This document shows, in pieces, positions 3,345 to 23,621 of a DNA stretch of 64,000 nt. Within the stretch, counting starts at the first letter, position 1. Every line of letters begins with the position of its first letter. Under the pieces are notes generated by a model. It was not told the origin of the DNA, did no database searches, and saw only the letters and a program-made list of their open reading frames with translations. A program made the translations under genes and the position numbers. Source of the stretch: Salinimicrobium sediminis (lineage in GTDB: Bacteria; Bacteroidota; Bacteroidia; Flavobacteriales; Flavobacteriaceae); assembly GCF_900215295.1 (NCBI RefSeq), contig NZ_OCMF01000001.1, positions 1,178,001 to 1,242,000 on the forward strand, written 5' to 3'.

Positions 3345-3410
3345 GTAACAAATGCTACACTTGTAGGTAACAAAAGTTACTGACCACCGCCTTCTCTAAG
3401 GGTATTTTTG
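3345..3410 (+). promoter_or_regulatory. Efflux-operon promoter with two Crp/Fnr-like operators and TAnnTTTG -7 box
   Basis: A perfect palindrome GTAACAAAAGTTAC lies at 3367-3380 and a weaker copy GTAACAAATGCTAC at 3345-3358, 22 bp apart start to start (two helical turns). A Bacteroidota -7 element TATTTTTG lies at 3403-3410, exactly 22 bp after the proximal palindrome. The expected start is near 3414, putting the main operator at about -40 and the second at about -62. The geometry is shared with six other promoters in the window. The rest of the 3137-3428 gap is AT-rich with no gene seen. Confidence 0.75.
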
Positions 3411-3428
3411 TCTCACAAATTTTAAGAG

Positions 3429-4748
3429 ATGAAAAGAACAAGAACCCTTGCCCTTATTCCCATATTGTTTTTAAGCTTTCTCCTGCAGGCGCAGGAGACG
3501 GTGCCTATTGGGAAAAGGGAGATCCTGGAAAGAGTACAGGAGAATAACAGCCGGTTAAGGATCTCTCAGCAGGAGTTCCTGGCAGCCCGTGCCCAGTACC
3601 GGCAAACCAATGCAGTCTTTTTACCCAATATAAGTGTTTCCCACACCGGGATGACCACCAATAATCCCCTTATGGCCTTTGGTTCCAAACTGAACCAGGA
3701 GATCGTCACCCAGGCCGATTTTGACCCGGCGCGGCTTAACGATCCCGACCGTATCGACAATTTTGCTACCAAGGTAGAAGTGCAACAACCGCTTATCAAC
3801 CTGGACGGCATCTGGCAGCGGAGCGCTGCAAAGGACAAGATGCAGGCCACAGAGCTGCAGAGCGTACGCACCGGGGACCACATGAAACTTGAAACCGAAA
3901 AAGCCTATATGCAGTTGCAGCTCGCTCACAAAGCGGTGACCGTACTGGAGCAGGCGCTGGAAACAGCACAGGCGAACCTGAGACTGGCCGAGAACAACTT
4001 CAAGCAGGGCTATCTGCAGCGCTCTGATGTGCTGGCAGTGGAAGTCCGCGTGACCGAAGTCAATAACCAGTTACAGTACGCCAGGAGTAATGTGAACAAC
4101 GCGAGCGATTATCTCATGTTCCTCATGGGCGATTCCATTGACGTGGTGCTCATTCCAAAAGATTCTCTTAGTGTGCAGTTGAATCCCGTAACCGCTTCTG
4201 AACTTCCCGGCGACCGTGCCGACATCCAAGCCATGGAACTGGCAGCCGGGGCACGCAGGAAAATGTACAGGGCCGATCAACTGGCTTTTTTGCCAAGGCT
4301 TAATGCCTTCGGAAGTTATGAGCTCTATGATGACGAGATCTTCCAGGGAGACGCCAACGGATACATGGCCGGCGTCGCATTGACCTGGGATGTTTTTGAC
4401 GGAAGCAAGCGCTTCGGAAAAACCCAGCAGTCCAAAGCCGAATTCAAACAGGCAGAATTGGAACTGGAACAACACGTCCACCAGAGTCAGATGGAATTGA
4501 ACCGCGCCACCCGCGCCTTAAGGGATGCAGAGAACAAACTGCAGCTGACGCAGCTGGCCCTGGAACAATCCAAAGAAGCCCTGCGCATTCGTAACAACCG
4601 CTATGAGCAAGGCCTTGAAAAAACCACTGATCTCTTAGGAGCCGAGACACAATATTCAGAAAAGCAACTGGAGTATTATCAGACGGTGTATGAATATAAT
4701 TATGCGGTGGCGTATTTGGAATTTTTGACGAGTAGTATTGAGAATTGA
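3429..4748 (+). CDS. TolC-family outer-membrane efflux protein
   Basis: A 439-residue protein with a cleavable signal peptide (residues ~1-21, ending LLQAQ) and two outer-membrane efflux protein repeats of long alternating coiled-coil helices and short strands. This is the TolC layout that forms a trimeric outer-membrane barrel and periplasmic tunnel. It is the first gene of an RND efflux operon with the membrane fusion protein (5042) and pump (6245). Transcription probably starts near 3414 under the Crp/Fnr-like operators. The last codons and the stop (4746-4748) lie inside a 7-bp-period repeat tract, so the C-terminus has been shaped by repeat DNA. The substrate of the pump cannot be told from this gene. 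Confidence 0.9.
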   Translation: MKRTRTLALIPILFLSFLLQAQETVPIGKREILERVQENNSRLRISQQEFLAARAQYRQTNAVFLPNISVSHTGMTTNNPLMAFGSKLNQEIVTQADFDPARLNDPDRIDNFATKVEVQQPLINLDGIWQRSAAKDKMQATELQSVRTGDHMKLETEKAYMQLQLAHKAVTVLEQALETAQANLRLAENNFKQGYLQRSDVLAVEVRVTEVNNQLQYARSNVNNASDYLMFLMGDSIDVVLIPKDSLSVQLNPVTASELPGDRADIQAMELAAGARRKMYRADQLAFLPRLNAFGSYELYDDEIFQGDANGYMAGVALTWDVFDGSKRFGKTQQSKAEFKQAELELEQHVHQSQMELNRATRALRDAENKLQLTQLALEQSKEALRIRNNRYEQGLEKTTDLLGAETQYSEKQLEYYQTVYEYNYAVAYLEFLTSSIEN

Positions 4749-4799
4749 GTAGTGAGTATTGAGATTGGAAGCACCAAATTCCAAGCACCAAATTCCAAT
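4737..4799. repeat. Heptamer-period repeat tract overlapping the TolC-gene stop codon
   Basis: Nine consecutive 7-bp units can be read, starting ATTGAGA, ATTGAGT, AGTGAGT, ATTGAGA, TTGGAAG, then CACCAAA and TTCCAAG twice over. The sequence drifts but the 7-bp phase is kept. The stop codon TGA at 4746-4748 is part of the tract. Confidence 0.75.
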
Positions 4800-4803
4800 T
4801 ATA

Positions 4804-4877
4804 ACGAATGTCACGCTGAGCCCGACTGCGAAGCAGGAGGAAAGCCTGTCCTGAGTATAGCGAAGGATCGAAGCGCT
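4804..4877. repeat. Dispersed intergenic repeat, copy 1
   Basis: Starts ACGAATGTCACGCTGAGC and ends GATCGAAGCGCT. It shares its two ends and a CCGAC...GGAGGAA core with the shorter copy at 9712-9763, which looks like an internally deleted version. It is a non-coding REP-like element inside the efflux operon; short ORFs crossing it are not credible genes. Confidence 0.65.
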
Positions 4878-4908
4878 ACTGGAAACGAAATAATATTTGA
4901 ACACAAAT

Positions 4909-4946
4909 GCCCTTCTCCCCCTTTAGGGGGCGGGGGGAAAAAGGGA
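4909..4946. repeat. C/G-rich palindromic repeat (CCCCCTTTAGGGGG type), copy 1
   Basis: A CCCCCTTTAGGGGG palindrome flanked by CTTCT and GGGGAAAA. A nearly identical block occurs at 9616-9652, and related palindromes flank nrdA at 62565 and 62654. It is probably a REP-type element that can form a stable hairpin. Confidence 0.6.
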
Positions 4947-4967
4947 GTCGGGAATACAGAACAACAA

Positions 4968-5037
4968 TCTTGAATCTTGAACCTTGAATTTTGAATTAAA
5001 GAAACTTTGAACATTAAACTTTAAACCTTGAACCAAT
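4968..5037. repeat. Heptamer-period tract ending at the MFP start codon
   Basis: Ten 7-bp units (TCTTGAA, TCTTGAA, CCTTGAA, TTTTGAA, TTAAAGA, AACTTTG, AACATTA, AACTTTA, AACCTTG, AACCAAT) run without phase change to within 5 nt of the ATG at 5042, so the leader of the membrane fusion gene is repeat-derived. Confidence 0.75.
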
Positions 5038-5041
5038 AGAG

Positions 5042-6124
5042 ATGAAAAAAACAATATACACAATAGCATTAGCTTCCCTGGGATTATTCGCGACGAGCTG
5101 TGGCAGCGATGATAAAAAACAGGCAGTGAATGAAGGTCCCGTAGTACCGGTGCAGGTGGAAACACCATCGGGGACGGGAGACCGTTTTCTCACTGCCAGC
5201 GGACAAATCGAAGCGGTAAACAGCGCCACCCTTAGCACCCGAATGATGGGGTTCATCGATGACATCCACGTGAACGTGGGAGACAAGGTGAACAAAGGCC
5301 AGTTACTGGTATCTATCAATAACAGCGACCTGCAGGCCAAACGTGCCCAGGTAAACGCCGGTATCACCGAAGCTGAAGCCGCCTACAATAACGCTAAAAA
5401 AGATTACGAAAGATTTAAGGCCCTTTTCTTAGAGCAGTCGGCTTCCCAAAAAGAAATGGATGACCAGACCGCCCGTTTTGAAATGGCGCAGGCCAGGCTA
5501 GAAGCAGCTAAACAAATGAGAAATGAAGTGAACTCCCAGTTCGCTTACGTGAACATACGTGCTCCTTTTAGCGGAGTCATCACTAACAAATTCGCAGAGG
5601 AAGGTACTATGGCCAATCCGGGTCAGCCGCTTTTAGCCGTAGAAGCTCCGGGGAATTTTGAAGTAACTGCCAGAGTTGCGGAGTCCAATATTTCAAAAAT
5701 AGAAACCGGAACCAAAGTGGACGTCATTGTAAAGTCTGTTGAGCAGACTGTTCCCGGCACCGTGGCGGAAGTTAGTACTTCGGCCAGCAACACCGGCGGA
5801 CAATACCTGGTGAAAGTAGCTCTTGAAGATACTGAAGCAGATTTGAAATCGGGGATGTATGCTACAGTGAGATTTCCGGTAGAGAAGCAGGAAAGCACTG
5901 CTGAAGCGGTAATGATCCCCACAGAAGCCATCGTGACCCGTGGTGACCTCAAGGGTGTTTATACGGTGAGTCAGCAGAATACCGCGATGCTGAGATGGCT
6001 AAGACTGGGAAGGACCTACGGTGACCGTGTAGAGGTACTTAGCGGACTCAACCCCGATGAGGCTTATATAGTTTCGGCAGACGGAAAATTGTTCAACGGA
6101 GCAAAAGTTAGTGTAAAGGAGTAA
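5042..6124 (+). CDS. RND efflux periplasmic adaptor (membrane fusion) lipoprotein
   Basis: A 360-residue HlyD/AcrA-type adaptor. A lipobox ATSC puts the acylated Cys at residue 20. It is followed by the lipoyl/barrel-sandwich half motif (IEAVNSATLSTRMMGFI...VGDKVNKGQLL), an alpha-helical hairpin (~95-150), the second lipoyl half (FAYVNIRAPFSGVITNKF), a beta-barrel domain and a membrane-proximal domain. It should bridge the TolC-like channel and the inner-membrane pump encoded on either side. The preceding gap is filled by repeats, so it is probably translated from the long transcript started at 3414. Length and domain order are normal for the family. Confidence 0.92.
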   Translation: MKKTIYTIALASLGLFATSCGSDDKKQAVNEGPVVPVQVETPSGTGDRFLTASGQIEAVNSATLSTRMMGFIDDIHVNVGDKVNKGQLLVSINNSDLQAKRAQVNAGITEAEAAYNNAKKDYERFKALFLEQSASQKEMDDQTARFEMAQARLEAAKQMRNEVNSQFAYVNIRAPFSGVITNKFAEEGTMANPGQPLLAVEAPGNFEVTARVAESNISKIETGTKVDVIVKSVEQTVPGTVAEVSTSASNTGGQYLVKVALEDTEADLKSGMYATVRFPVEKQESTAEAVMIPTEAIVTRGDLKGVYTVSQQNTAMLRWLRLGRTYGDRVEVLSGLNPDEAYIVSADGKLFNGAKVSVKE

Positions 6125-6191
6125 AGATGCGTTAAGGATTGAGGCAGTTATCCTCCCGACCGGAGGAAGGGAGATAGCGCCGAAAGCCTGA

Positions 6192-6219
6192 CCCCGCCGA
6201 AGCTTTAGCGAAGGTGGGG
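6192..6219. repeat. REP-like hairpin with CCGAAGCTTTAGCGAAGG core, copy 1
   Basis: CCCCGCC (6192-6198) pairs with GGTGGGG (6213-6219), one G-T pair, around an AAGCTT-centred loop. The core at 6197-6214 recurs at 10519-10536 with one change. It lies in the 120-nt gap between the adaptor and pump genes. Confidence 0.55.
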
Positions 6220-6244
6220 AAACGCCCAAAGAACCATAGAAAAT

Positions 6245-9200
6245 ATGAAAGAAGGATTAGCAGGCAAGATTGCCAAAGGCTTTATTAATTCAAAATTGAC
6301 GGTGTTGCTCATGATCGTGTTCATGATCGTGGGTGTGTACGCGTCATTTTTAATTCCACGCGAGGAAGAGCCGCAGATCGATGTGCCCATGGCCGACATT
6401 TTTGTTGGCTACCCGGGTGCCAGCCCTACCGAGGTGGAACAGCGTATTATCAAACCCCTGGAAAAAATGGTTTCCAACATTCCGGGTGTGGAGTATGTCT
6501 ACTCTACCTCCATGGAAGAACAGGGGATGTTGATCGTGCAGTTCTACGTGGGCGAGGACATTGAACGTTCCTATGTGAAGCTCTACAACGAGCTCATGAA
6601 GAATATGGACCAGTTTCCGCCCAATGTGAGTCAGCCGCTGGTGAAGACGAGGGCTATTGACGATGTTCCGGTACTGGGGCTCACCCTGTGGAGCGAAAAT
6701 TATGACGATTACCAGCTGCGGCAAATGGCCAATGAACTGCGCCATGAGATCGAAAAAGTTGAAGATGTTTCTATAGTGAACACCATTGGTGGCCGTGACA
6801 GACAACTGCGCGTGGTGCTCGACAAGGACAGGATGGCTGCCAGCGGAGTGGATCTGCTTGGGGTTACTGAAAAGATCAAGGCTTCCAATCAGCAGCTTTC
6901 CTCGGGCAGTTTTGACCGTAACGATAGCGAAGTTCTGGTTAGCTCCGGAAGCTTTTTGGAATCCCCACAGGATGTGGAGAACCTCATCGTGGGAGTGAAT
7001 GACGGGCAACCGGTGTACCTGAAGCAAATTGCCACGGTACAGGATGGGCCCGAGATCTCTAAATCTTACGTGAATTTTGGATTTGGACAGGCAATAGATG
7101 CTTCGGAATATCCCGGGGAATATCCTGCGGTAACTTTATCTGTAGCCAAACGCAAGGGAGCCGATGCGATGAAGATCGCCGATGTGATCCTGGAAAAAGT
7201 AGAGCATCTGCAAACAAATCTTATTCCTGAAGATGTACATGTGGAAGTTACCCGTAACTACGGCGAGACCGCTTCTCATAAAGTGGGAGAATTATTGCTG
7301 CACCTTATTGGCGCAATCATAGCCGTAACCCTGGTAGTGATGCTGGCCATGGGATGGCGTGGCGGACTGGTGGTATTCCTTTCGGTACCTATCACCTTTG
7401 CTCTTACGCTACTTAGTTATTATATGCTCGATTACACCCTGAACAGGATCACCTTGTTCGCACTGGTATTCGTGACCGGTATTGTGGTCGATGACTCGAT
7501 CATTATTGCCGAGAACATGCACCGGCACTTTAAGATGAAACGCCTGCCGTTCAAACAGGCCGCACTCTATGCCATCAACGAGGTTGGGAACCCAACAATC
7601 CTGGCAACCTTTACGGTAATTGCATCGGTGCTGCCAATGGCTTTCGTAAGCGGATTGATGGGACCATATATGAGCCCAATGCCTATTGGAGCTTCTATTG
7701 CGATGATCCTGTCCCTTTTCGTGGCACTGACCATTACTCCGTACCTCGGATTCATCTTTTTACGTGAAAAGGAGAAAAAAGGAAAGCCGGTAAAAGAGGC
7801 TGAAAAAGGCATTGAAGATTCGATGATCTACCGCGTATACAAACGCTTTGAAGAACCACTTATCGATAACAAGAAGATCCGTTGGGGCTTCCTGGGCTTA
7901 ACTGCCCTACTCCTGCTGGGTTCTGTCGCCCTGTTCTTTACTGAAGACGTAGCCGTAAAGATGCTGCCTTTTGATAACAAGAATGAATTCCAGGTGGTTA
8001 TTGACATGCCCGAAGGAACAACTTTAGAAAGAACAGCCGTGGTGACCAAAGAAGTAGGTCAATACCTAAGCGGAAGCGAACAGGTAGTGAACTACCAGAC
8101 CTACATTGGCACCTCTGCCCCAATCACCTTCAACGGACTCGTACGTCACTACGACCTGCGCGGAGCAAGTAACACTGCCGATATCCAGGTGAACCTGTTG
8201 CCAAAAGGAGATCGTGATCTGCAGAGTCACGACATTGCAAAACTGCTGCGCCCGGATATCCAGGCGATAGGAGATAAATACGGAGCCAACATCAAGCTGG
8301 TGGAAGTTCCGCCGGGACCTCCGGTATTGTCTACCATAGTCGCTGAAGTCTACGGACCCGATTATGAGACACAGATCGCACTTGCCGACAGTATCCAGAC
8401 CATACTTCACAATACCGAAGATGTGGTGGATATTGACTGGATGGTCGAAGCGGATCAAAAAGAGTACGAATTCGAAATAGATAAGGAAAAAGCCATGCTC
8501 AATGGCATTGCTCCCCAGCAGATCGTTTATACCCTGAACTCCGCGATGGGGGAAAGAGCCATTACGCAGCTTTATGATGAAGAAGCTACCCAAAGGGTGG
8601 GAATCGTGCTTACCCTGGATGAAGAGGAAAAATCTTCGGTTGAGGATATCATGAATATCCAGATCGCTTCCCAAAGTGGTCAAATGATCCCAATAGCCGA
8701 TCTGGTAGAGCCTAAAGAAGTCTTAAGGGACAAGAGCATCTATCGTAAGAACCAGAAGCGAGTGGTGTACGTGCTGGCCGATATGGCCGGGGAACTCGAG
8801 AGTCCTGTTTATGCTATCCTTGGAATGGAAGAAAAACTGAAGGAGATCGACATGCCTGCCGGTTATGAGATAAGTGACCTGTATATGGGTCAGCCGCAAT
8901 ATGAAGATGACTACACCGTGAAATGGGATGGAGAGTGGCAGATCACCCTGGAGGTATTCCGGGATCTTGGGATCGCATTTTTGGGAGTGATTGTGATCAT
9001 TTATATCCTCATCGTGGGTTGGTTCCAAAACTTTAAAGCTCCAATAGTGATGATGGTAGCCATTCCGCTATCGCTGATAGGAATTGTTCTGGGTCACTGG
9101 ATCATGGGTGCCTTCTTTACCGCTACCTCCTTTATTGGGATGATCGCGCTGGCCGGGATCATGGTGCGGAACTCGGTGCTGCTCATCGACTTTGTAAATC

Positions 9201-9493
9201 TGAGACTGGAAGACGGAATTCCGTTGAAACAGGCGGTGATCGAAGCCGGGGCTGTAAGGACCACGCCAATCCTCTTAACTGCCGGAACGGTAGTGATCGG
9301 AGCCTTCGTGATCCTCTTCGACCCAATTTTCCAGGGATTGGCGATATCCCTTATGGGAGGTACTATTGTCTCGACTTTCCTAACCCTGTTGGTAGTGCCG
9401 TTGGTGTACTATATGATAGAGAGAAAGAAGTATGAGGACAGGGAGGAGAAACCGGTTGTAACCGAAAAACGAGAAACTGAGGAGGTTATTTAG
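6245..9493 (+). CDS. RND-family efflux pump, inner-membrane subunit (AcrB/MexB superfamily)
   Basis: A 1082-residue protein with the duplicated RND architecture: an N-terminal transmembrane helix (~16-36), a large periplasmic porter loop, six helices, then a second half with the same plan. The IPREEEPQIDVP segment after the first helix and the proton-relay pair Asp416-Asp417 in GIVVDDS of the fourth helix are typical. The pump exports substrate by proton antiport through the adaptor and TolC-like partners encoded upstream. HAE-1-like drug pumps and more divergent anion/lipid exporters both fit. Control by the sulfur-stress operator at 3367 suggests a reactive or toxic small molecule, which is inference. 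Confidence 0.93.
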   Translation: MKEGLAGKIAKGFINSKLTVLLMIVFMIVGVYASFLIPREEEPQIDVPMADIFVGYPGASPTEVEQRIIKPLEKMVSNIPGVEYVYSTSMEEQGMLIVQFYVGEDIERSYVKLYNELMKNMDQFPPNVSQPLVKTRAIDDVPVLGLTLWSENYDDYQLRQMANELRHEIEKVEDVSIVNTIGGRDRQLRVVLDKDRMAASGVDLLGVTEKIKASNQQLSSGSFDRNDSEVLVSSGSFLESPQDVENLIVGVNDGQPVYLKQIATVQDGPEISKSYVNFGFGQAIDASEYPGEYPAVTLSVAKRKGADAMKIADVILEKVEHLQTNLIPEDVHVEVTRNYGETASHKVGELLLHLIGAIIAVTLVVMLAMGWRGGLVVFLSVPITFALTLLSYYMLDYTLNRITLFALVFVTGIVVDDSIIIAENMHRHFKMKRLPFKQAALYAINEVGNPTILATFTVIASVLPMAFVSGLMGPYMSPMPIGASIAMILSLFVALTITPYLGFIFLREKEKKGKPVKEAEKGIEDSMIYRVYKRFEEPLIDNKKIRWGFLGLTALLLLGSVALFFTEDVAVKMLPFDNKNEFQVVIDMPEGTTLERTAVVTKEVGQYLSGSEQVVNYQTYIGTSAPITFNGLVRHYDLRGASNTADIQVNLLPKGDRDLQSHDIAKLLRPDIQAIGDKYGANIKLVEVPPGPPVLSTIVAEVYGPDYETQIALADSIQTILHNTEDVVDIDWMVEADQKEYEFEIDKEKAMLNGIAPQQIVYTLNSAMGERAITQLYDEEATQRVGIVLTLDEEEKSSVEDIMNIQIASQSGQMIPIADLVEPKEVLRDKSIYRKNQKRVVYVLADMAGELESPVYAILGMEEKLKEIDMPAGYEISDLYMGQPQYEDDYTVKWDGEWQITLEVFRDLGIAFLGVIVIIYILIVGWFQNFKAPIVMMVAIPLSLIGIVLGHWIMGAFFTATSFIGMIALAGIMVRNSVLLIDFVNLRLEDGIPLKQAVIEAGAVRTTPILLTAGTVVIGAFVILFDPIFQGLAISLMGGTIVSTFLTLLVVPLVYYMIERKKYEDREEKPVVTEKRETEEVI

Positions 9494-9870: not shown

Positions 9871-9872
9871 AG

Positions 9873-11913: not shown

Positions 11914-11957
11914 GTAATAAATGTTACTGCTCCTTCCGGGTTTAAGGATTAACTTTA
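11914..11957 (+). promoter_or_regulatory. Racemase promoter with Crp/Fnr-like operator
   Basis: Operator GTAATAAATGTTAC at 11914-11927 (one change from the palindrome) and a -7-like element TAACTTTA at 11950-11957, exactly 22 bp downstream. The expected start is near 11961, 13 nt before the ATG. Confidence 0.65.
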
Positions 11958-11973
11958 GTAGAAATTGAAGCCC

Positions 11974-12660
11974 ATGAAAAAGATCGGACTTATAGGTGGT
12001 ACCTCCTGGCATTCCACAATTGTTTACTACAGGTTGATCAACGAGCTGGTAGGGGAGAGGATCGGGTCGCAGGCGAATCCGGAGCTGCTCATCTACAGTC
12101 TCAACATTGAACTTATGCGGGAGCAGAATAAAGAAAAGATCAACAATAAATACCTCGGAATTGCCCGCACATTAGAGACTGCAGGGGCCGAAGCTTTGGT
12201 GATCTGTGCCAATACGCCGCACATGGTGTATGATTTCGTGCAACCGCAAATCGATATTCCAATCCTTCATATCGCTGATGCTATTGGAAAAGAAGCCCAT
12301 AGTTCCGGACTTAAAACTCTGGGCCTGCTGGGGAACAGGCCTACCATGACAGGTGATTTCATTTCGGAATACCTCAAAAATAACTACGGCATTAGAACCA
12401 TAATTCCTGATGCTCAATTCATAGATCAAAACCATCATTACGTGTCTGCCGAACTTACGCAGGGAATATTCTCTGATAAGGCTAAAGAATTTTTCATGGA
12501 ACAAATGGAGCTGCTGAAGCAAAAGGGAGCAGAAGGGATCATTCTTGGCTGTACCGAACTGCCGATGCTCATAGAGACTTCAGATTTTGACCTGCCAATG
12601 ATGGCAACCACCCAACTACATGCACAAATGGCTGCAGATTTTATTCTTTCTGATAATTAA
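11974..12660 (+). CDS. Aspartate/glutamate racemase family protein
   Basis: The ATG at 11974 is preferred over the in-frame TTG at 11965 because the predicted transcript starts near 11961. 228 residues: N-terminal GLIGGTSW, first catalytic Cys78 in VICANTPH and second Cys193 in LGCTELPM, the pair that removes and returns the alpha-proton in PLP-independent amino-acid racemases. RacD/YgeA-type enzymes act on aspartate, glutamate or related amino acids; the substrate cannot be assigned here. The gene is monocistronic, with its own Crp/Fnr-like operator, so it appears to belong to the sulfur-stress regulon. Two reactive cysteines in the active site make it a plausible sulfide/persulfide target, which is inference. 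Confidence 0.85.
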   Translation: MKKIGLIGGTSWHSTIVYYRLINELVGERIGSQANPELLIYSLNIELMREQNKEKINNKYLGIARTLETAGAEALVICANTPHMVYDFVQPQIDIPILHIADAIGKEAHSSGLKTLGLLGNRPTMTGDFISEYLKNNYGIRTIIPDAQFIDQNHHYVSAELTQGIFSDKAKEFFMEQMELLKQKGAEGIILGCTELPMLIETSDFDLPMMATTQLHAQMAADFILSDN

Positions 12661-13727: not shown

Positions 13728-13764
13728 TGTGTAAGTTTAATTTTAAAGATAAAGCAGGTTTTTT

Positions 13765-14300: not shown

Positions 14301-14301
14301 A

Positions 14302-14651: not shown

Positions 14652-14695
14652 CAAATTTACACCCGGGGAAGAGGTTTCACAGTTACTTTTGTTAC
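14652..14695 (-). promoter_or_regulatory. Rhodanese-operon promoter with Crp/Fnr-like operator
   Basis: On the minus strand, operator GTAACAAAAGTAAC (14695-14682, one base off the palindrome), then 22 bp, then -7 box TAAATTTG (14659-14652). Predicted start about 14648. Confidence 0.7.
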
Positions 14696-16206: not shown

Positions 16207-16250
16207 CAAAAATAACCTCCAATAAGGCGGAAGGCAGTAACAATTGTTAC
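16207..16250 (-). promoter_or_regulatory. Persulfide dioxygenase promoter with Crp/Fnr-like operator
   Basis: Perfect palindrome GTAACAATTGTTAC (16237-16250); 22 bp further along the minus strand is the -7 box TATTTTTG (16214-16207). Predicted start about 16203, giving a ~65-nt leader. Confidence 0.75.
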
Positions 16251-16424: not shown

Positions 16425-16467
16425 GTAACATTAGTCACAAAGAGCGGGCTAAGAATTCCTATTTTTG
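16425..16467 (+). promoter_or_regulatory. Promoter of the 118-aa/DoxX/DsrE/SoxB-like operon with Crp/Fnr-like operator
   Basis: Operator GTAACATTAGTCAC (16425-16438, one change from the palindrome), 21-bp gap, -7 box TATTTTTG (16460-16467). Predicted start about 16471, only ~5 nt before the ATG at 16476. Confidence 0.65.
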
Positions 16468-16475: not shown

Positions 16476-16832
16476 ATGGGCCTCAACTCTTACATAGCGA
16501 TTCTCTTTTCGGTGATCTTCTTCGGAAAATTCCTCGTAATGGACTCCAAAATACTGGTGGCTGTTTTTGATGCAGATGAGATCTCTTATGTAAACCCTTT
16601 CTGCAAAAAACAAAATGTGAAAATGCAGAACAACAGCGCTGCGAAATCTTTAGCTGAAGATAACCAATCTCTGGACCTTACTATTGATTCCTTTTGCAAT
16701 GCCCCTTTTAAGTTTGACGTTTTTACCTGGGAATCCAGGATAATTACTGAAGAAACCCGGGCATACGCAGATCAAACTCCCTCTTTGCCGGAATCTGCTA
16801 AAGACAGGTTCTACCCACCTCCAAGAGCTTAG
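16476..16832 (+). CDS. Hypothetical small membrane-anchored protein, first gene of a sulfur operon
   Basis: 118 residues with no recognised family. Residues ~5-20 are a hydrophobic segment (signal anchor or signal peptide). The rest is polar, with two cysteines (in NPFCKKQN and DSFCNAPF) and a proline-rich tail. The predicted start site lies about 5 nt upstream, so the message is nearly leaderless or the start differs; an internal Met in VMDSKILV near 16540 is an alternative but would remove the hydrophobic segment. It is the first gene behind the operator and is followed at 73 nt by DoxX, so it is predicted to be a periplasm-facing part of the same pathway. The function is unknown. Confidence 0.6.
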   Translation: MGLNSYIAILFSVIFFGKFLVMDSKILVAVFDADEISYVNPFCKKQNVKMQNNSAAKSLAEDNQSLDLTIDSFCNAPFKFDVFTWESRIITEETRAYADQTPSLPESAKDRFYPPPRA

Positions 16833-16905
16833 GCTTTACTTCCAAACCTAAACTTTTTTTAATCTTTTCAGGACCTGAAAGTTCTGAACCAAAACCTATT
16901 TTATA

Positions 16906-17355
16906 ATGACGACGCAGATCTCAGTCAGCCGTCGCTCCATTCGGGTATTGAGAGTAATGCTTAGCGGGATATTTCTTATCGCAAGTGCCAATCACCTTAT
17001 GAATGTAGAGCAAACGGCAAAACGCATAGACGCAGCCAGTATGAAAGGATTCGCTTACCTCTTTGGAGACCCCGAGATACTGGTGATCCTTTCGGGTATT
17101 GTCATGCTCGTGGCAGGACTCGCCTTTTTTGCAGGCTTCCGAACCCGGTGGGCGGCAGCGATCCTCCTGTCAGTTCTCATCCCAATTACCCTTACCATTC
17201 AGGTAGGACAGGCGCATACCATGGGACCCTTATTTAAAAATATAGCCATCATGGGCGGACTCCTGTTCTTTATCCTGAATGACTTTACCAAAGAAACAAT
17301 AACCGAAACAAACCCGGCTCAACCGGAATTGAGCATAAAAAACAAAGCACTATGA
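16906..17355 (+). CDS. DoxX-family membrane protein
   Basis: 149 residues with four predicted membrane helices (about 15-32, 58-76, 83-100, 112-128) and the family's helix-1 phenotype (RVMLSGIFLIASANHLMN). DoxX proteins are related to the small subunit of archaeal thiosulfate:quinone oxidoreductase and to thiol-stress complexes. It overlaps the DsrE gene by 4 nt (17352-17355) and lies in one operon with the SoxB-like enzyme. A role passing electrons from sulfur compounds to the quinone pool fits the context but is inferred. Confidence 0.8.
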   Translation: MTTQISVSRRSIRVLRVMLSGIFLIASANHLMNVEQTAKRIDAASMKGFAYLFGDPEILVILSGIVMLVAGLAFFAGFRTRWAAAILLSVLIPITLTIQVGQAHTMGPLFKNIAIMGGLLFFILNDFTKETITETNPAQPELSIKNKAL

Positions 17356-17768
17356 AAATGTATTTTATAAGCAGTATCGTAATTCTCCTTGCAGTATTTA
17401 CCAATCCTGTAAATGCTCAGGAACAGCAAGAGCAACAGAACTATGTTGTACTAACAAAGAAAGTTCCACAGCTCAAGCCTATTTTAATAGCAGCAGAATC
17501 GCTGGCCCGCGAAGACGGGCATCACTTCGGAAAATTCGAGGTCATCATTTGTGGTCAAACCGTAAAGGAACTTACCAATAAAGAAATGATGCAGGAACAT
17601 ATCAACAAAGCTAAAGAACAAAATGTAGAGCTTGTCGCCTGCGGATTCTCCCTGAAGAAATTCGGAGTGGATCGAAGGGATATTTCCCCTGAACTCAAGG
17701 TGGTCGATAACGGGATCCTGTATAACCTTCAACTACAAAAGAAGGGATATATAAGTCTTTCTCTTTAA
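17352..17768 (+). CDS. Exported DsrE-family protein
   Basis: 138 residues. A signal peptide (~1-22, cut after NAQ) marks it as periplasmic, unlike classical cytoplasmic DsrE/TusD. The DsrE fold is seen in KFEVIICGQTVKEL (Cys67) and NVELVACGFSLKKFG (Cys97); the second matches the position of the sulfur-carrying cysteine of DsrE-type proteins. It is probably a sulfur carrier that works with DoxX and the SoxB-like hydrolase on either side (4-nt overlap before, 10-nt gap after). Exported DsrE proteins are common in Bacteroidota and poorly studied. Confidence 0.8.
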   Translation: MKMYFISSIVILLAVFTNPVNAQEQQEQQNYVVLTKKVPQLKPILIAAESLAREDGHHFGKFEVIICGQTVKELTNKEMMQEHINKAKEQNVELVACGFSLKKFGVDRRDISPELKVVDNGILYNLQLQKKGYISLSL

Positions 17769-17778
17769 ATCTCCGGAA

Positions 17779-19425
17779 ATGAAAATATTAAAAGGAATTT
17801 TTTTGGCAGGAATTGCCATCTGGAGTTTTACATCCTGTAACAGGCTAACAGGAGCGAATGCAGATTCAGCAATAATGGCAAAGGATACCCTTAGCATTAC
17901 CGTGCTCCAAACCGCAGATATTCACGGGCAACTTGACCCACACCCGGAATTGTTCTGGGAAAACGGGGAGATCGTCTTTAAAGAAAGAGGTGGCCTGGCG
18001 AATATTAAGACCCTTTTTGAAGAAGAACGGGTAAAAAATCCCGGCCGCACCATCATTGTAGACGGGGGAGACCTCATCCAGGGAAGCGGATATGCCGCTC
18101 TTTCTGAAGGGCGTATTTTTCCTGAACTCATCAGTAACATGGGTTATGACGTAATCATTCCCGGAAACTGGGAAGTGGTCTACGGGAAAGACAGAATGAT
18201 GGAGATTATGACGGGGTACAATACCCCTGTAATTGCACAGAACATGTTCCATCAGGATAATGGAAAGCCACTCTTTCCACCTTACTGGATCAAAGAGATC
18301 GAAGGTGTGAAAATTGGTTTTATCGGCATCAATGACCCTGATGTTCCCGTACGTCAAAATCCTGTCTTTAGTAAAGGGATGAGCTTCAGTGGAATCGAAG
18401 ATGAGGTGAAGGGGCTTATAACTAAAGTCAAAAAGGAGGAAGAAGTAGATGTGCTTTTTCTTGTTACTCACATTGGAGTGTTTAAGCAGGTGGATCTGGC
18501 CAGCCGGGAGCTGGCGAAAGACGTGGATTATATCCTCGGAAATGATACCCACGAAAGACTGCGGAAACCTGTTCAGGGAAAATATGCAAAGGTGACAGAA
18601 CCCGGAGCTTTTGGTTCTTTTGTGGGAAAACTCACCTTGCATTTTGTGGATGGAAAGCTGGTGGGAGATGACTACGAACTCCTGGATGTGGATCCCCAAG
18701 TTTATCCCGCAGATCCCGAACTGCAGCAGATGGTGGAGAAAGCCAAGAAACCTTACGAGGACCATCTCGAAACTGTGGTGGGACACACAGCGACACCCAT
18801 TTACAGATACCTGACGGTGGAAAATCCAATGGACAATATGATCACCGACGCCGCAAGATGGAAAACCGGGGCCGATATCTCCATTTCCAACGGCTTCAGG
18901 TTCGGAAATCCCATAGTTCCCGAAAATGGGAAACCTGCGCCTATTACCCGGGCCAACCTGTGGAACCTGCTTCCGGTAAATGAGAAAGTAAAGACCGGAA
19001 AAGTAACCGGGCAACAAGTGAAAGACTGGCTGGAGCGGGAGATGCATAATGCCTTTGCACAGGTGCCTACAGAAAGATTTGGAGGTTGGCTGGTAAGATT
19101 CTCCGGCATGGAGGTAGACTTCAATAGTCAGGGGGGAAAAGGAGAACGTGTTCAGTCTATAACCATTAAGGGAGAACCTATGCAAATGGATGAAACTTAT
19201 ACCATTTCTGCCTGTGTACGTCCCGGCGACCCAATTGACAACTTGTGCCGTATTCCCGATGTGAAGGAGGTGGAAATAAAAGATTATACCATCCACGAGG
19301 TGGTGGAAGAATATTTAAGAAAGAATTCCCCGGTTTCTCCAAAGCTGGAAGGCCGTGCCTATTGTGAATATTTAGGACCTTACTCTTTTTCCACAGTACC
19401 TGAGACAGATTACAAATTTCAGTAA
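17779..19425 (+). CDS. SoxB-like/5'-nucleotidase family metallophosphatase, lipoprotein
   Basis: 548 residues; lipobox TSC (Cys20). A calcineurin-like metallophosphatase domain (~38-290) carries metal ligands in TADIHG (Asp47, His49), DGGD (Asp98) and HIG/GNDTHE later on, followed by a 5'-nucleotidase C-terminal domain (~330-520). The canonical GNHE of nucleotidases is GNWE here (129-132), a replacement reminiscent of the SoxB thiosulfohydrolase branch. The operon partners DoxX and DsrE also point to sulfur substrates. True SoxB works with SoxYZ/AX, none of which is in the window, so the substrate may be a different sulfur conjugate. An alternative is an ordinary nucleotide hydrolase with a lost catalytic His. 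Confidence 0.75.
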   Translation: MKILKGIFLAGIAIWSFTSCNRLTGANADSAIMAKDTLSITVLQTADIHGQLDPHPELFWENGEIVFKERGGLANIKTLFEEERVKNPGRTIIVDGGDLIQGSGYAALSEGRIFPELISNMGYDVIIPGNWEVVYGKDRMMEIMTGYNTPVIAQNMFHQDNGKPLFPPYWIKEIEGVKIGFIGINDPDVPVRQNPVFSKGMSFSGIEDEVKGLITKVKKEEEVDVLFLVTHIGVFKQVDLASRELAKDVDYILGNDTHERLRKPVQGKYAKVTEPGAFGSFVGKLTLHFVDGKLVGDDYELLDVDPQVYPADPELQQMVEKAKKPYEDHLETVVGHTATPIYRYLTVENPMDNMITDAARWKTGADISISNGFRFGNPIVPENGKPAPITRANLWNLLPVNEKVKTGKVTGQQVKDWLEREMHNAFAQVPTERFGGWLVRFSGMEVDFNSQGGKGERVQSITIKGEPMQMDETYTISACVRPGDPIDNLCRIPDVKEVEIKDYTIHEVVEEYLRKNSPVSPKLEGRAYCEYLGPYSFSTVPETDYKFQ

Positions 19426-19440
19426 TGAAATTAATTAATA

Positions 19441-19482
19441 TAAGAGCCTGCCTTTTTCAAACAGAGATTTGGCAGGTTCTTA
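19441..19482 (+). terminator. Hairpin terminator after the SoxB-like gene
   Basis: TAAGAGCCTGCC (19441-19452) pairs with GGCAGGTTCTTA (19471-19482), one G-T pair, 18-nt loop. The T run is weak. Confidence 0.55.
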
Positions 19483-19522
19483 TCATAGAAGATTATAACT
19501 TAACATTGCAAAATTTGAGATT

Positions 19523-21130
19523 ATGAGACGAGGAAAATTATTGAAGATGGTAAGTATGGGGGTAATATTTGCAATAGTAACAAGTTGTGGGCAGAGAAAT
19601 ATAGCCACCTCTGGAAATAGAGGGAAGCAACAAACCATTACCTTACTGCATACCAATGACATTCATGGCAATTACATGCCATTTTTGACCACTACAGGAA
19701 GTGCCACTTCCCAAACAGGTGATGCAGGTAGAGATACATTAATCACTTTTAAACAGCAGGCCGAAATAGGTGGTTTTGCAGTATTGGCAACCGCGGTGAA
19801 GGAAATTAGGAAATCAAAGGGAGATGAAAATGTTCTCCTGCTGGATTCGGGGGACGCTTTTGGTGATGATCTTTTAGGGAATCTAACCAGGGGAGAAGCT
19901 GTAATAAGGATGATGAAAAAATTAGGTTATAATTATCTTTCTCTTGGTAATCATGATTTTGACTACGGCAGGGAACGTACAGAAGAATTGATGAAAATCG
20001 CCGGTTTCCCTTTTGGCGCTGCCAATATCAGAGACAAAAGAACAGGAAAAAGTATTTTTGGCAATCCTTATTTAATAAAGGAAATAGGAGGTACAAAAAT
20101 AGCTATTCTGTCCCTGGGATATCATAATACAGATCTTACCGGAAATTCAGAAAATATGAAGGATCTGGAATTTCTCCGGGGGAATGAAGTTTTAAAGGAA
20201 GTTTTACTAGAGGTTAAGGAACAGGCCGATATCATTATTTTGCTATCGCACCAGGGAACTGCTGTTGACAGATTGACTGCAGAAGAATTTTCTGAAATTG
20301 ATCTCATTTTGGGAGGGCATAGCCATGATCTCATATCAAAACCCGAAAAAATTAATAATACCTATATGGTACAGGCACTGTCTGATGCTGCAGCGCTTGG
20401 TGAAATTGACCTGGAGATCACAGATGGCAAATTAACAGGAATAAAGGCAAATCATCAATTACTTTGGTTAAGTGATTTTGAAAAGGACGGTGAAATGGAG
20501 AATCTTATTAAAGAACTTCGGGCTCCGCACCTTGTTCATCTTGAGGAAGTTATAGCAACGGCAACAGAGGTGATTGACAGGCAATACAAAACAGAAAGTT
20601 CTTTTGATAAATTCGTTGGAAATTTGCTTCGCAAAGAATATGAGGCAGAAATTGCTTTTTTGCCGGGAGTAGGTTATGGCATCTCTCTCCAGGGAGATAT
20701 CACACGAGAAGACCTGTACCGGCTTATTCCACATCCTCCTAAGATTGTTACCCTCAGCCTTACCGGAAAACAAGTTAAGGCTACTTTGGAGCAAACCGCA
20801 ACCAACCAAAAACCCGGGGATAAATATGAGGTAGTGGGCGGTCTGCTGCAAAGTAGTGGAGTCAGCTACACACTGGATTATTCTAAATCTGTGGGAAATC
20901 GCATAACCGCTGTGCAGGTCAACGGAAAAGATCTTGATCTTGAAAAAGAATATAAGATCGTTACTCACAGCGGAATGCTAAAGGGGCTTCATCGCTATAA
21001 TGAAATTGGAAAAGGGAAGAACATCGACAGAAAAGATATTCAACTGAATGAATTTGTCACTGAAAAATTCCGTGAGTTAAAAGATATAAGTAACCCCGAA
21101 AATATGAAGGAAATCAAATTTATTAAATAA
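19523..21130 (+). CDS. 5'-nucleotidase/2',3'-cyclic phosphodiesterase family lipoprotein
   Basis: 535 residues; lipobox VTSC (Cys22). It has all classical motifs: LLHTNDIHGN (Asp46, His48), DSGDAFGDD, LGNHDFDYG (141-149, catalytic His144-Asp145), LLSHQG, GGHSHD, and the C-terminal substrate-specificity domain (~340-520). It should hydrolyse nucleotides at the cell surface or in the periplasm. It is a distant paralogue of the preceding SoxB-like gene, but with the intact GNHD. It is separated from it by a hairpin and lacks a GTAAC operator, so it is probably independently transcribed. Confidence 0.88.
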   Translation: MRRGKLLKMVSMGVIFAIVTSCGQRNIATSGNRGKQQTITLLHTNDIHGNYMPFLTTTGSATSQTGDAGRDTLITFKQQAEIGGFAVLATAVKEIRKSKGDENVLLLDSGDAFGDDLLGNLTRGEAVIRMMKKLGYNYLSLGNHDFDYGRERTEELMKIAGFPFGAANIRDKRTGKSIFGNPYLIKEIGGTKIAILSLGYHNTDLTGNSENMKDLEFLRGNEVLKEVLLEVKEQADIIILLSHQGTAVDRLTAEEFSEIDLILGGHSHDLISKPEKINNTYMVQALSDAAALGEIDLEITDGKLTGIKANHQLLWLSDFEKDGEMENLIKELRAPHLVHLEEVIATATEVIDRQYKTESSFDKFVGNLLRKEYEAEIAFLPGVGYGISLQGDITREDLYRLIPHPPKIVTLSLTGKQVKATLEQTATNQKPGDKYEVVGGLLQSSGVSYTLDYSKSVGNRITAVQVNGKDLDLEKEYKIVTHSGMLKGLHRYNEIGKGKNIDRKDIQLNEFVTEKFRELKDISNPENMKEIKFIK

Positions 21131-21288: not shown

Positions 21289-21373
21289 CTTTGTTATAAT
21301 GATCAGCAATTCCTTACTGTTTTAAAGTTCCACCTCCACAAACATCTAATTTAAGAGGATCTACTTATATTTA

Positions 21374-21979
21374 TTAATACTGCTCCTTTAAAAACTTCTT
21401 GAATTTATTAGTATTGTAATCTCCCATTCCCAGGTGGGTCATCACCAGTTTACCATCAGCATTTATTACAAAGGTGCTGGGGATGCTTTGTGTTTGGTAC
21501 ATCACCGGCATGCCTCCATTTAATTGATAGATCTCAAAGTCATAGCCTTTCTTTTCATTAAAGTCAATGGCTTTTTGAAAATCCTGATCTACAGATAGCA
21601 TGATAAAAGCCACTTTCTCCTTATCTACGTCATTATAGAGCTTATTGATTCCGGGCATTTCGGCTACACATGGAGGACACCAGGTAGCCCAAACATTCAT
21701 AAAGATCACTTTGCCTTTAAGATCCTTCATTGCCACTTTTTCCCCTTTGGAATTGATGAGGTTCATATTAAAATCTGCAGTTGGACTTGCATCATTCATG
21801 GCAAGATCCTCCTTTTCTTCAAGGTCGGGGTTCATTAATCCGGTGGCGAGGATCCCACGTTGCAGGAATCCCAGGACTTCGGTATGTAAACCTGTTACAT
21901 ATAATCCGCCAAAAATGGCAAAAATGATCCCGTATTCTATGAGGTGTTTTTTCAGACTTTTCTTCTTCTTTTCTTTCAT
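21374..21979 (-). CDS. TlpA-like membrane-anchored thioredoxin
   Basis: The ATG at 21979 (201 residues) is chosen over 22024 because the predicted promoter -7 box lies at 22017-22010, inside the longer version. One N-terminal membrane helix (~17-34), a linker, then a TlpA/ResA thioredoxin fold with redox site WCPPC (Cys101, Cys104) and the cis-Pro segment in TQSIPSTFVI. The catalytic domain faces the periplasm and would reduce or exchange disulfides, for example for cytochrome maturation or thiol repair. It is monocistronic, with its own Crp/Fnr-like operator, so it is part of the sulfur-stress regulon. Confidence 0.88.
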   Translation of the reverse strand: MKEKKKKSLKKHLIEYGIIFAIFGGLYVTGLHTEVLGFLQRGILATGLMNPDLEEKEDLAMNDASPTADFNMNLINSKGEKVAMKDLKGKVIFMNVWATWCPPCVAEMPGINKLYNDVDKEKVAFIMLSVDQDFQKAIDFNEKKGYDFEIYQLNGGMPVMYQTQSIPSTFVINADGKLVMTHLGMGDYNTNKFKKFLKEQY

Positions 21980-22009
21980 GCTTGCAGTTCTTCTTTGATT
22001 TAGGTATTC

Positions 22010-22053
22010 CAAAGATAGAGCCACTATTCCCTGTGGGATGTAACAAAGGTTAC
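22010..22053 (-). promoter_or_regulatory. TlpA-like gene promoter with Crp/Fnr-like operator
   Basis: On the minus strand, operator GTAACCTTTGTTAC (22053-22040), 22 bp, -7 box TATCTTTG (22017-22010). Predicted start about 22006, a 26-nt leader to the ATG at 21979. Confidence 0.75.
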
Positions 22054-22069
22054 AATAGGCAGCAAGAAA

Positions 22070-22093
22070 AAAGGCATCCTAATGGATGCCTTT
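22070..22093 (-). terminator. Terminator of the TauE-methyltransferase operon
   Basis: Perfect 10-bp stem AAAGGCATCC (22070-22079) / GGATGCCTTT (22084-22093), TAAT loop, T run on the minus strand. Confidence 0.85.
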
Positions 22094-22114
22094 CAAAAAA
22101 TTGAAATTTATTGT

Positions 22115-22729
22115 CTATTTCTTTTTTTCAGCAACAAAGCGTATTACCCAGCCTTTGCCTTTGTGGAATGCCCCCTCCTCAAGTTCAATCTCTCCTTCAA
22201 AGAATTCCAAAAAATGAAGATCATGAAAGGAATTTTTGATCTCCTCTTCAGAAAACAGCATTTCTGGCTCTTTTGGGCCTCCAACTGCCGGATTGCTTTC
22301 CTGGTATTGAGGATGTTTAGAGGCAAAACCTTCAAAGATCACTTTTCCACCTTCTTTTAAATATTTATGTGCCGAGTTGAAGAATTCCTGTCTTTGCTGA
22401 GGAGGAAAGTGGGCATAAACAAAGCCTATGGCATCAAACTGAGCTTCTTTAAAGCTAAGGTTTTGCAGCCCGGAAACCGTATAGTCGATTTCCACCCCTT
22501 CAGCTTCAGCCAGTCTTAAAGCTTTCTTCCTGCCTTCCTCACTTTGATCAAAAGCTGATACCTGCCAGCCTTTTTTGGCTGCATGAACTGCATTTCTACC
22601 TTCCCCTTCCGCAGGGAAAAGGATTCTGCCGGGGGTGAGGTTTTTGAGTTTAGCTTTTAGATACTCATTAGGATCCTTTCCGTAGATATATTCCTCCCGT
22701 TGATATCTTTCATTCCAGAATTCCTGCAT
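22115..22729 (-). CDS. Class I SAM-dependent methyltransferase (TehB/thiopurine-type)
   Basis: The ATG at 22729 gives 204 residues; a TTG at 22747 would add six. Small Rossmann methyltransferase: FWNERYQREEYIYGKDPNEYL at the start, the SAM-binding motif as RILFPAEGEGRNA, acidic strand end in VSAFDQSE, and FDAIGFVYAHFP as motif IV. This subgroup includes TehB and thiopurine methyltransferase, which methylate tellurite, selenium or thiol compounds. It follows the TauE gene by 27 nt on the same strand, so it is under the same operator. Methylation of a toxic sulfur or chalcogen species is a reasonable inference. Confidence 0.82.
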   Translation of the reverse strand: MQEFWNERYQREEYIYGKDPNEYLKAKLKNLTPGRILFPAEGEGRNAVHAAKKGWQVSAFDQSEEGRKKALRLAEAEGVEIDYTVSGLQNLSFKEAQFDAIGFVYAHFPPQQRQEFFNSAHKYLKEGGKVIFEGFASKHPQYQESNPAVGGPKEPEMLFSEEEIKNSFHDLHFLEFFEGEIELEEGAFHKGKGWVIRFVAEKKK

Positions 22730-22756
22730 AGTTTTTTTAGGTGTCAAAAATGGAAT

Positions 22757-23554
22757 TTAAAGCAGCTCTTTTCCAATGATGTAAATTCCCATCACCAGCA
22801 CAAACCAACCAAAACCTTTTTTCAGTTTTCTACCGTCTATGAATTTGTTGAGGTAACCTCCCAGGAAGATCCCAATAATAGAAAGTCCGGTGAAGATCAG
22901 AAGAAAGACCCAGTCAATGTCGAGATTCTGCACATCTCCAATAAATCCTATAAGAGATTTGACGGCAATGATGAGCAGGGAAGTGGCTACTGCTTTTTTC
23001 ATAGGAAGTTTGGCCAGTAAAACCAGTGCAGGGATAATTAAAAATCCTCCCCCGGCCCCCACAATTCCTGTTAACACGCCCACTACAACCCCTTCTATGA
23101 TTATGAGGGGATAATTATATTTCACTTTTGTCTCCCGCAGGTCTGCATTGGAGGTTTCCCTGATCATGGAAACCGATGCCACGATCATGATCACTGCAAA
23201 GAATAGCATGATCCCGATGTCTTTAGTGACTTCAAAATCCCAGAGGGTGAAAATATGTTCGGGAATTGCGGGGACTAAATACTTTCGGGTGGCATAAACT
23301 GCTATAAATGCCGGAATGGAAAATACGGTGGCAGTGCGAAAATCCACCAGCTTCTTTTTTAGATTATTAAGCGCTCCCACGAGAGAGGAGGCGCCAACCA
23401 CGAATAAGGAATATGCGGTTGCCGTTACGGGATTGATCGACAGCAAATAGACCAGCACAGGGACAGTAAGAATGGAACCACCTCCTCCAATGAGGCCCAA
23501 AACAACCCCGATCAATAAAGCACCTAAATATCCTAAGAGGTCAATAATCTCCAA
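22757..23554 (-). CDS. TauE/SafE-family sulfite/anion exporter
   Basis: 265 residues with eight predicted membrane helices arranged as two repeats, each with the glycine-rich signature (GVVLGLIGGGGSILTVP near 17-33; GVLTGIVGAGGGFLIIP in the second half). TauE/SafE proteins export sulfite, sulfoacetate or related anions. It is the first gene of an operon with the methyltransferase, behind a perfect Crp/Fnr-like operator and directly downstream of the regulator gene. Export of sulfite or thiosulfate made by the persulfide dioxygenase would complete the pathway. Confidence 0.9.
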   Translation of the reverse strand: MEIIDLLGYLGALLIGVVLGLIGGGGSILTVPVLVYLLSINPVTATAYSLFVVGASSLVGALNNLKKKLVDFRTATVFSIPAFIAVYATRKYLVPAIPEHIFTLWDFEVTKDIGIMLFFAVIMIVASVSMIRETSNADLRETKVKYNYPLIIIEGVVVGVLTGIVGAGGGFLIIPALVLLAKLPMKKAVATSLLIIAVKSLIGFIGDVQNLDIDWVFLLIFTGLSIIGIFLGGYLNKFIDGRKLKKGFGWFVLVMGIYIIGKELL

Positions 23555-23577
23555 AATTTCTTCAATTTAATGGGAAG

Positions 23578-23621
23578 CAAAAGTAACCTCCGGTCCTTCC
23601 ATTTGCAGTAACAAAAGTTAC
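23578..23621 (-). promoter_or_regulatory. TauE-operon promoter with perfect Crp/Fnr-like operator
   Basis: Palindrome GTAACTTTTGTTAC on the minus strand (23621-23608), 22 bp, -7 box TACTTTTG (23585-23578). Predicted start about 23574. The site sits 12 nt beyond the stop of the regulator gene. Confidence 0.78.

Follow-up and report, generated by a model that had tools for sequence, protein, structure and literature searches.

A predicted Crp/Fnr-family regulon for sulfide and persulfide detoxification in Salinimicrobium sediminis and its relatives

Background

What switches on a cluster of sulfur genes whose promoters seem to share one operator at one distance from the -7 box? This question is raised by a stretch of the Salinimicrobium sediminis genome (NCBI RefSeq assembly GCF_900215295.1, contig NZ_OCMF01000001.1, positions 1,178,001 to 1,242,000 of the forward strand), which we call the window: the whole 64,000 nucleotides, with positions counted from its first letter. 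An earlier inspection of the letters alone (the sequence-only reading) had noted seven intergenic copies of the palindrome GTAACnnnnGTTAC at a fixed spacing before TAnnTTTG, which we take to be the Bacteroidota -7 box, and had proposed that they make up a regulon of class II promoters through which sulfur species are oxidised, carried and exported, controlled by the adjacent Crp/Fnr gene (23634-24266).

Our analysis points to class II activation of sulfide and persulfide detoxification by a Crp/Fnr protein, a reading to which we give a probability of roughly 0.8. The coupled motif, its fixed spacing and conservation, its co-occurrence with the regulator gene, the gene content, and the conserved helix and cysteines are all present in the DNA itself, and from them we infer binding, activation and effector.

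Seven promoters with a coupled operator and box

A scripted scan of both strands recovered all seven sites at the coordinates first given, with an operator-to-box gap of 22 bp in six and 21 bp in one (16425). Three face rightward (3367, 11914, 16425) and the other four leftward, and four combine a perfect palindrome with a perfect TAnnTTTG 22 bp on (3367, 16237, 22040, 23608). The weakest of the seven is 11914 (gap 22), with one mismatch in the palindrome and one in the box (TAACTTTA), so the original description stands for coordinates, palindromes and gaps but not for an exact TAnnTTTG at this site. The elements are as follows, the boxes having been located by motif scan.

3345..3358, plus strand: additional palindrome farther upstream in the pump promoter, GTAACAAATGCTAC (one mismatch; 22 bp upstream of the 3367 site; outside the earlier seven)
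3367..3380, plus strand: operator of the RND pump operon, GTAACAAAAGTTAC (perfect, gap 22)
3403..3410, plus strand: -7 box of the pump operon, TATTTTTG
11914..11927, plus strand: weak operator upstream of the racemase gene, GTAATAAATGTTAC (one mismatch, plus the box mismatch)
11950..11957, plus strand: box of the racemase gene, TAACTTTA (one mismatch)
14652..14659, minus strand: -7 box of the rhodanese operon, TAAATTTG
14682..14695, minus strand: operator of the rhodanese operon (one mismatch, gap 22)
16207..16214, minus strand: -7 box of the dioxygenase gene, TATTTTTG
16237..16250, minus strand: operator of the dioxygenase gene, GTAACAATTGTTAC (perfect, gap 22)
16425..16438, plus strand: operator of the gene row for a 118-amino-acid protein, DoxX, DsrE and nucleotidase-like proteins, GTAACATTAGTCAC (one mismatch, gap 21)
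16460..16467, plus strand: -7 box of the same row, TATTTTTG
22010..22017, minus strand: -7 box of the TlpA gene, TATCTTTG
22040..22053, minus strand: operator of the TlpA gene, GTAACCTTTGTTAC (perfect, gap 22)
23578..23585, minus strand: -7 box of the TauE gene, TACTTTTG
23608..23621, minus strand: operator of the TauE gene, directly behind the regulator gene, GTAACTTTTGTTAC (perfect, gap 22)

The number of coupled sites expected by chance was estimated from 60 copies of the window generated by a dinucleotide Markov model. When one mismatch in all is allowed, the window has six coupled sites against a mean of 0.017 in the copies, and when two are allowed it has seven against 0.033. The palindrome without the box is less striking, as its 29 occurrences at up to two mismatches are only about two-fold above the 15.5 expected. 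Rfam and tRNA scans of the window gave no matches.

A scan of the whole genome and of relatives, which the sequence-only reading had put forward as a check, bears the coupled motif out. In the genome (3.48 Mb, 8 contigs) there are five coupled sites with a 22-bp gap and at most one mismatch, all inside the window cluster. Two-mismatch sites with this gap are 11914 and C8:631444, the latter within a coding frame, and we took the 23 three-mismatch hits as noise. The regulon is thus mostly local. Perfect palindromes number seven, i.e., four in the cluster, two within coding frames and one at C8:865921 (GTAACAATTGTTAC), which has no box at 22 bp; a rhodanese gene cluster follows it, and a second, related regulator gene is 3.3 kb downstream. 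By eye, a ATGACnnnnGTCAT palindrome stands about 23 bp before TAACTTTG upstream of the rhodanese genes of this region (C8:859000-878999; L106, L003). The outcome that the sequence-only reading had named as a refutation, a motif just as frequent within genes and far from boxes, was not what the scans gave, although at three mismatches the own-genome scan was at control level.

Conservation and promoter geometry

Both motif and regulon prove real and are common across the family: 99 of 149 family genomes hold 214 copies of the exact coupled motif, against two copies of a reversed-pattern control. The spacer is nearly fixed, as opening it from 2 to 31 lengths raises the number of motif-positive genomes only from 99 to 106, and among 62 box matches at gaps of 5-44 bp in 40 stretches, 54 have a gap of 22 bp, four of 21 bp, two of 23 bp and two some other value. 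A scan of the phylum found the motif in 26 of 296 genomes, all of them among the 73 of the same class (0 of 223 outside it). These 26 span seven families, and the motif is conserved in five families besides the host family and a family f11, to which we return below.

Averaging 77 exact sites gives a promoter with no strong element from operator to box, a T before the operator in 75% of cases, and A-rich positions at 5 and 7 bp beyond the box. The operator centre stands 36.5 bp upstream of the final base of TAnnTTTG. A transcription start at the nearer A-rich position, 5 bp beyond the box, would place that centre at -41.5 (near -40 in the sequence-only reading). On this geometry, class II activation is very likely. 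Two loci (L203 3670-3743 and L122 9420-9493) have a single palindrome between divergent boxes, 21-22 bp away on each side, possibly a bidirectional promoter.

The candidate regulator

The adjacent gene had been named as the regulator, and it is now the best candidate through co-occurrence and adjacency in relatives. A close orthologue is present in 116 of the 149 family genomes, with the split between close and distant relatives set by us (best E between 1e-50 and 1e-61). Of these 116 genomes, 96 have the exact motif, as against 1 of the 10 that have a distant relative only and 2 of the 23 that lack any (Fisher p 6e-15, with no correction for phylogeny). For 25 of the 29 closest orthologues, a site with at most one mismatch follows the regulator gene on its own strand at a distance of no more than 250 bp (10 plus-strand cases counted by script, 15 others read by eye), against a chance of 0.0034 per locus. 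The same adjacency is seen in 58 of 80 loci from named genomes, with an exact site in 42 and a gap of 22 in all 58. Both sets of loci (L077-L105 and L229-L308) were picked by regulator similarity alone, and their genomes overlap. The product of 23634-24266 is thus, with high probability, the regulator of these sites.

The protein belongs to the Crp/Fnr superfamily, with PF00027 and PF13545 above cut-off and fold matches to 3dv8, CRP and NtcA, and its nearest named orthologue is from Salinimicrobium nanhaiense (Flavobacteriaceae, Bacteroidota; 99% identical). In HMMER alignments, Arg182-Val183 align with Arg-Val of NtcA and Arg-Glu of Vfr. The helix S-R-V-V-[VI]-S-R is strongly conserved: R182 and R187 occur in 68 of 68 regulators and V183 in 67, the exception being a 36% paralogue carrying Arg-Glu, and all 80 named orthologues have the Val-Val helix. 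The only cysteines are Cys77 (in 68 of 68), Cys83 (63) and Cys84 (62), with the CC pair kept in 76 of the 80 named orthologues, and these conserved sensor-domain cysteines make the protein, by sequence, a candidate persulfide sensor. Among the best hits in eight motif-positive genomes of families f2-f6, six have the Val and seven the Cys-x5-Cys-Cys loop.

In Fnr, a cysteine cluster at the N terminus binds a 4Fe-4S centre, and the operators are built of TTGAT half-sites. The present protein is not Fnr proper, because it has no Fe-S cysteine cluster and its half-site is GTAAC, so the likeness to an Fnr site drawn in the sequence-only reading falls away in favour of an NtcA-like Arg-Val helix. 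Assignment to CRP (cAMP) was also rejected (54 bits against an equivalog cut-off of 266, and Val where CRP has Glu181), as was NtcA (42.6 bits against 244.95). Published residue-base correlations, i.e., R180 with G3 and E181 with A6 (PMC1274295) and CprK Val192 with a pyrimidine (PMC2610375), fit the G and A of the GTAAC half-site.

Content of the regulon

The genes behind the seven promoters, and the regulator gene, are as follows.

3429..9493, plus strand: RND pump, with outer membrane channel (3429-4748), adaptor (5042-6124) and RND permease (6245-9493), by family profiles
11965..12660, plus strand: Asp/Glu-family amino acid racemase, above the TIGR00035 cut-off
12758..13147, plus strand: DUF302 protein behind the racemase gene, by profile match, a possible member of the regulon
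13278..14586, minus strand: rhodaneses (14302-14586 and 13980-14300), small protein (13765-13983) and OsmC (13278-13727), by profiles
14802..16139, minus strand: persulfide dioxygenase, with metallo-beta-lactamase and two rhodanese stretches, by domains and solved relatives
16476..21130, plus strand: 118-amino-acid protein, DoxX, DsrE-like protein and two proteins of the SoxB/5'-nucleotidase superfamily, by profiles
21374..22024, minus strand: TlpA/ResA-type thioredoxin, by profiles, with GTG at 22024 as listed start
22115..23554, minus strand: TauE/SafE exporter (22757-23554) and S-adenosylmethionine methyltransferase (22115-22747), by profiles
23634..24266, minus strand: Crp/Fnr-family regulator, the proposed activator, with Cys77, Cys83, Cys84 and helix S181-R182-V183-V184-V185-S186-R187

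Comparative genomics strongly supports the proposal of a regulon for sulfur oxidation and export. We labelled the first gene within 250 bp of each of 155 sites by its best BLAST match to a labelled set, using 73 stretches (some of them sharing a genome), of which 60 were chosen by regulator or motif (20 of them for having no exact motif) and 13 by motif or hcp. Since the stretches were chosen this way, the tally describes content, not frequency. The first genes were persulfide dioxygenase-like (36), TauE (35), sulfide:quinone oxidoreductase (SQR; 10), YeeE (10), rhodanese (8), pump outer membrane channel (7), peroxiredoxin (6), SulP (4), Tll0287/cytochrome protein (3), thioredoxin, cytochrome bd, hcp and a Crp gene (2 each), DsrE (1) and other (16), with none at 11 sites. 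The SQR of locus L120 resembles mitochondrial SQR structures (E 3e-103). One genome of a different family (G411) has nearly the whole set behind seven exact sites: SQR, YeeE, dioxygenases, TauE, cytochrome bd, DsrE, SoxB-like protein and peroxiredoxin. Within the same genus, locus L108 has the gene order regulator, motif, TauE, cytochrome bd subunit I.

Two members had seemed out of place in a sulfur regulon, the pump and the racemase, and they fared differently. The motif stands before an orthologous pump in 12 other genomes, which makes the pump a conserved regulon member. Five of these come from 30 loci, one per genome, taken by a search without regard to genes (L048, L050, L051, L059 and L071), where a homologous channel (49-65%) lies directly behind the site. 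The others are L114, L119 (gap 23), L125, L134, L135, L144 and, in a different family, L209. In the five stretches that include the permease, it is 65-81% identical. A second exact palindrome at -22 was seen in one of 10 other pump promoters checked (L048). There, at 1479-1514 on the site's strand, two perfect palindromes 22 bp apart precede the pump operon, like the pair at 3345 and 3367.

For the racemase, none of eight close homologues (L167-L174, 61-71% identical) has a site directly before the gene, a comparison that left out a ninth close homologue in the own genome (C6:278851). Six of the eight have no site within 1.5 kb upstream, and in L172 and L173 a site is 0.56-1.2 kb upstream with small open reading frames between, one of them rhodanese-like in G129.

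Several labels and gene starts of the window could be refined. The dioxygenase, which is presumably CstB-like, has 3tp9 and 3r2u as best solved relatives, matching over nearly its whole length. The label SoxB-like holds at the level of the superfamily, but SoxB thiosulfohydrolase proper was rejected for 17779-19425 and 19523-21130 (266.2 and 279.9 bits against the TIGR04486 cut-off of 550). The former protein matches with its C-terminal Pfam domain alone, so its metallophosphatase part may have diverged. The listed GTG of TlpA (22024) is upstream of its box, and an ATG in the same frame, at 21979, agrees with the promoter. For the racemase, translation more likely begins at the ATG at 11974 than at the TTG given in the list. 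A search of NCBIfam profiles gave no match for the small protein (13765-13983).

Two further genes of the window are of note. A Tll0287-like protein (10723-11742) with a weak c-type cytochrome match directly precedes the racemase gene, and its relatives recur in regulon clusters of other genera. A Ysc84/SYLF-domain gene (24430-25059) is divergent from the regulator gene and has no coupled site of this kind.

Relation to known systems

Among known systems, NtcA binds GTAN8TAC near -41.5, in some cases 22 nt from the -10 box (PMC3898017). The Arg-Val recognition residues, GTA-N8-TAC core, class II position and spacing of about 22 nt to the box are all common to both, but NtcA serves a nitrogen regulon with 2-oxoglutarate as effector and a TAN3T box, rather than TAnnTTTG. 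CprK/RdhK6 (PMC2610375, PMC7062800) are also Crp/Fnr proteins, with TTAAT-N4-ATTAA at -41.5 and Val at the matching recognition position. They differ in the outer base (T, not G), the effector (chlorophenol), the targets (dehalogenases) and the redox cysteines (Cys11 and Cys200). In Acinetobacter baumannii, FisR and BigR exert sulfide/persulfide-responsive control of persulfide dioxygenase, YeeE/YedE and related genes, but FisR is a sigma-54 activator and BigR an ArsR-type repressor (PMC7315123), where we propose a Crp/Fnr class II activator.

The closest solved protein in sequence and fold is 3dv8, a Crp/Fnr protein of Eubacterium rectale that has a DxC...SC stretch in common with ours but an Arg-Glu helix, and whose entry names no function. 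CstR and SqrR are further sulfide regulators. A literature search aimed at a Crp/Fnr-activated sulfide regulon of Bacteroidota found none, most subscription papers being outside its scope, and the excerpts on PgRsp (PMC6955866), RedB (PMC9603854) and a meta-regulon (PMC8510549) hold no match to this one. The palindrome itself has a precedent, since GTAACnnnnGTTAC had already been predicted in 2005 as the operator of HcpR2, the regulator of hcp (Rodionov et al. 2005, PMC1274295).

Alternative explanations

That identity of operators raises the possibility that the window protein is an HcpR2-type nitrosative-stress regulator, with the sulfur genes as a side branch of a nitric oxide response. HcpR2 also has the Crp/Fnr fold and no Fnr-type cysteine motif, and in family f11, which is of the same class, both genomes fetched have the coupled motif directly before hcp (gaps 22 and 23), in one of them (G372) adjoining a Crp/Fnr gene with the helix SRPSLAR. 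We consider this quite unlikely and reject membership in HcpR2. HcpR2 has Pro at position 181 (Ser or Gln in three species; PMC1274295) and predicted control of hcp, but here the targets are sulfide genes and the position is Val in 67 of 68 regulators and 80 of 80 named orthologues, and a search of the 149 family genomes for hcp (PF03063) gave a hit in just one, a fragment. The f11 regulator is only 21% identical to the window protein (E 0.57) and is without the cysteine set. At E 1e-6, members of the window regulator's family are absent from both f11 genomes, whereas the other 11 of 13 motif-positive genomes tested have one. The palindrome and its geometry would thus be common to two distant regulators with different targets. 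Of the two f11 loci, L201 is the one whose neighbouring Crp/Fnr gene has Arg-Pro in its helix, and in L200 the neighbours of hcp include a gene with a hemerythrin domain (Pfam) and one that looks, by eye, like a flavodoxin gene.

The sites might instead be real but bound by another protein, the adjoining gene being merely linked. The candidate is the 47% paralogue C8:869242, alone or together with the window protein, as it has S-R-V-V-V-x-R in common and is in a rhodanese cluster with a perfect palindrome upstream. This is unlikely, given that orthologue and motif co-occur side by side in most loci of both sets and that most genomes in the regulator search show a single match. The sign of regulation cannot come from sequence, and the protein could be a repressor, or an apo-repressor that turns activator. 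However, a repressor would tolerate varied positions, so the near base-exact spacing speaks against it, as does an operator that leaves the box free at the class II position, and we think a repressor a shade less probable even than an HcpR2-type regulator. Chance palindromes of an A+T-rich genome could explain the two-fold excess of the palindrome alone and the two of seven perfect genomic palindromes that are inside genes. For the coupled sites, such an origin is negligible in view of the Markov counts (0.03 expected per window against seven), the adjacency to the regulator gene and the conservation across the family and five more families besides f11, except perhaps for site 11914.

Several observations weigh against the proposed activator or narrow its reach. 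Twenty genomes have a close orthologue but no exact site (in the fetched stretches, 12 of these show a site once two mismatches or a spacer of 23 bp are allowed, and eight show none), 22 of the 80 named-genome loci have no adjacent site and six none in the locus, and three genomes (G010, G088, G147) have the motif without a close orthologue. Two genomes from other families (G305, G245) have exact sites, yet their sole regulator hit carries Glu rather than Val. Their regulators (L218, L222) combine a TC...CC loop with an Arg-Glu helix in genomes with exact GTAAC sites, so either a simple residue code fails or a different regulator serves these sites. In the own genome, a three-mismatch coupled scan does no better than control (30 hits in total against 29 per strand), the second regulator has nearly the same helix, keeps Cys77 and Cys84 and could share sites, and no SQR match was found (single query, no positive control). 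The AlphaFold model is least reliable in the cysteine loop (pLDDT 64-65 for residues 71-90, against a mean of 87 overall), and by the comparison of homologues the link of the racemase to the regulon is weak.

Proposed mechanism

We propose that a dimer of the 23634-24266 protein would bind GTAACnnnnGTTAC as a Crp/Fnr-family class II activator and, from -41.5, recruit RNA polymerase to the Bacteroidota-type -7 box. Most likely when sulfide, or toxic products derived from it, accumulate, this would switch on persulfide dioxygenase, rhodaneses, TlpA, DsrE/DoxX, the RND pump and TauE, the last perhaps for export of sulfite or a related product, and in relatives also SQR, YeeE/DUF6691, SulP, peroxiredoxin and cytochrome bd. 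The trigger is most probably persulfide or polysulfide formed from sulfide and sensed by Cys77/83/84. Given these sulfur genes, persulfide or polysulfide would be the simplest signal to assume. We regard a sulfide or persulfide signal as probable, heme or another ligand being possible too.

More tentatively, and a little short of even odds, we suggest a lineage-wide Bacteroidota sulfide/persulfide switch with a Cys-x5-Cys-Cys loop, which would use an operator and geometry as in the functionally unrelated HcpR2 and NtcA and drive a dedicated RND tripartite pump for a toxic sulfur compound.

Significance

The coupled motif gives a rule for predicting sulfide-detoxification promoters across a large bacterial family, with the likely regulator named, along with the residues expected to set its DNA specificity and signal. 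Within a single class, two Crp/Fnr regulators that are only distantly related appear to use one operator and spacer to answer different stresses. The orthologous RND efflux pump inside a sulfide regulon raises the question of what it exports. If the proposal is true, this would, as far as we know, be the first case in which sulfide induces an RND export route linked to the SQR-persulfide dioxygenase-TauE pathway.

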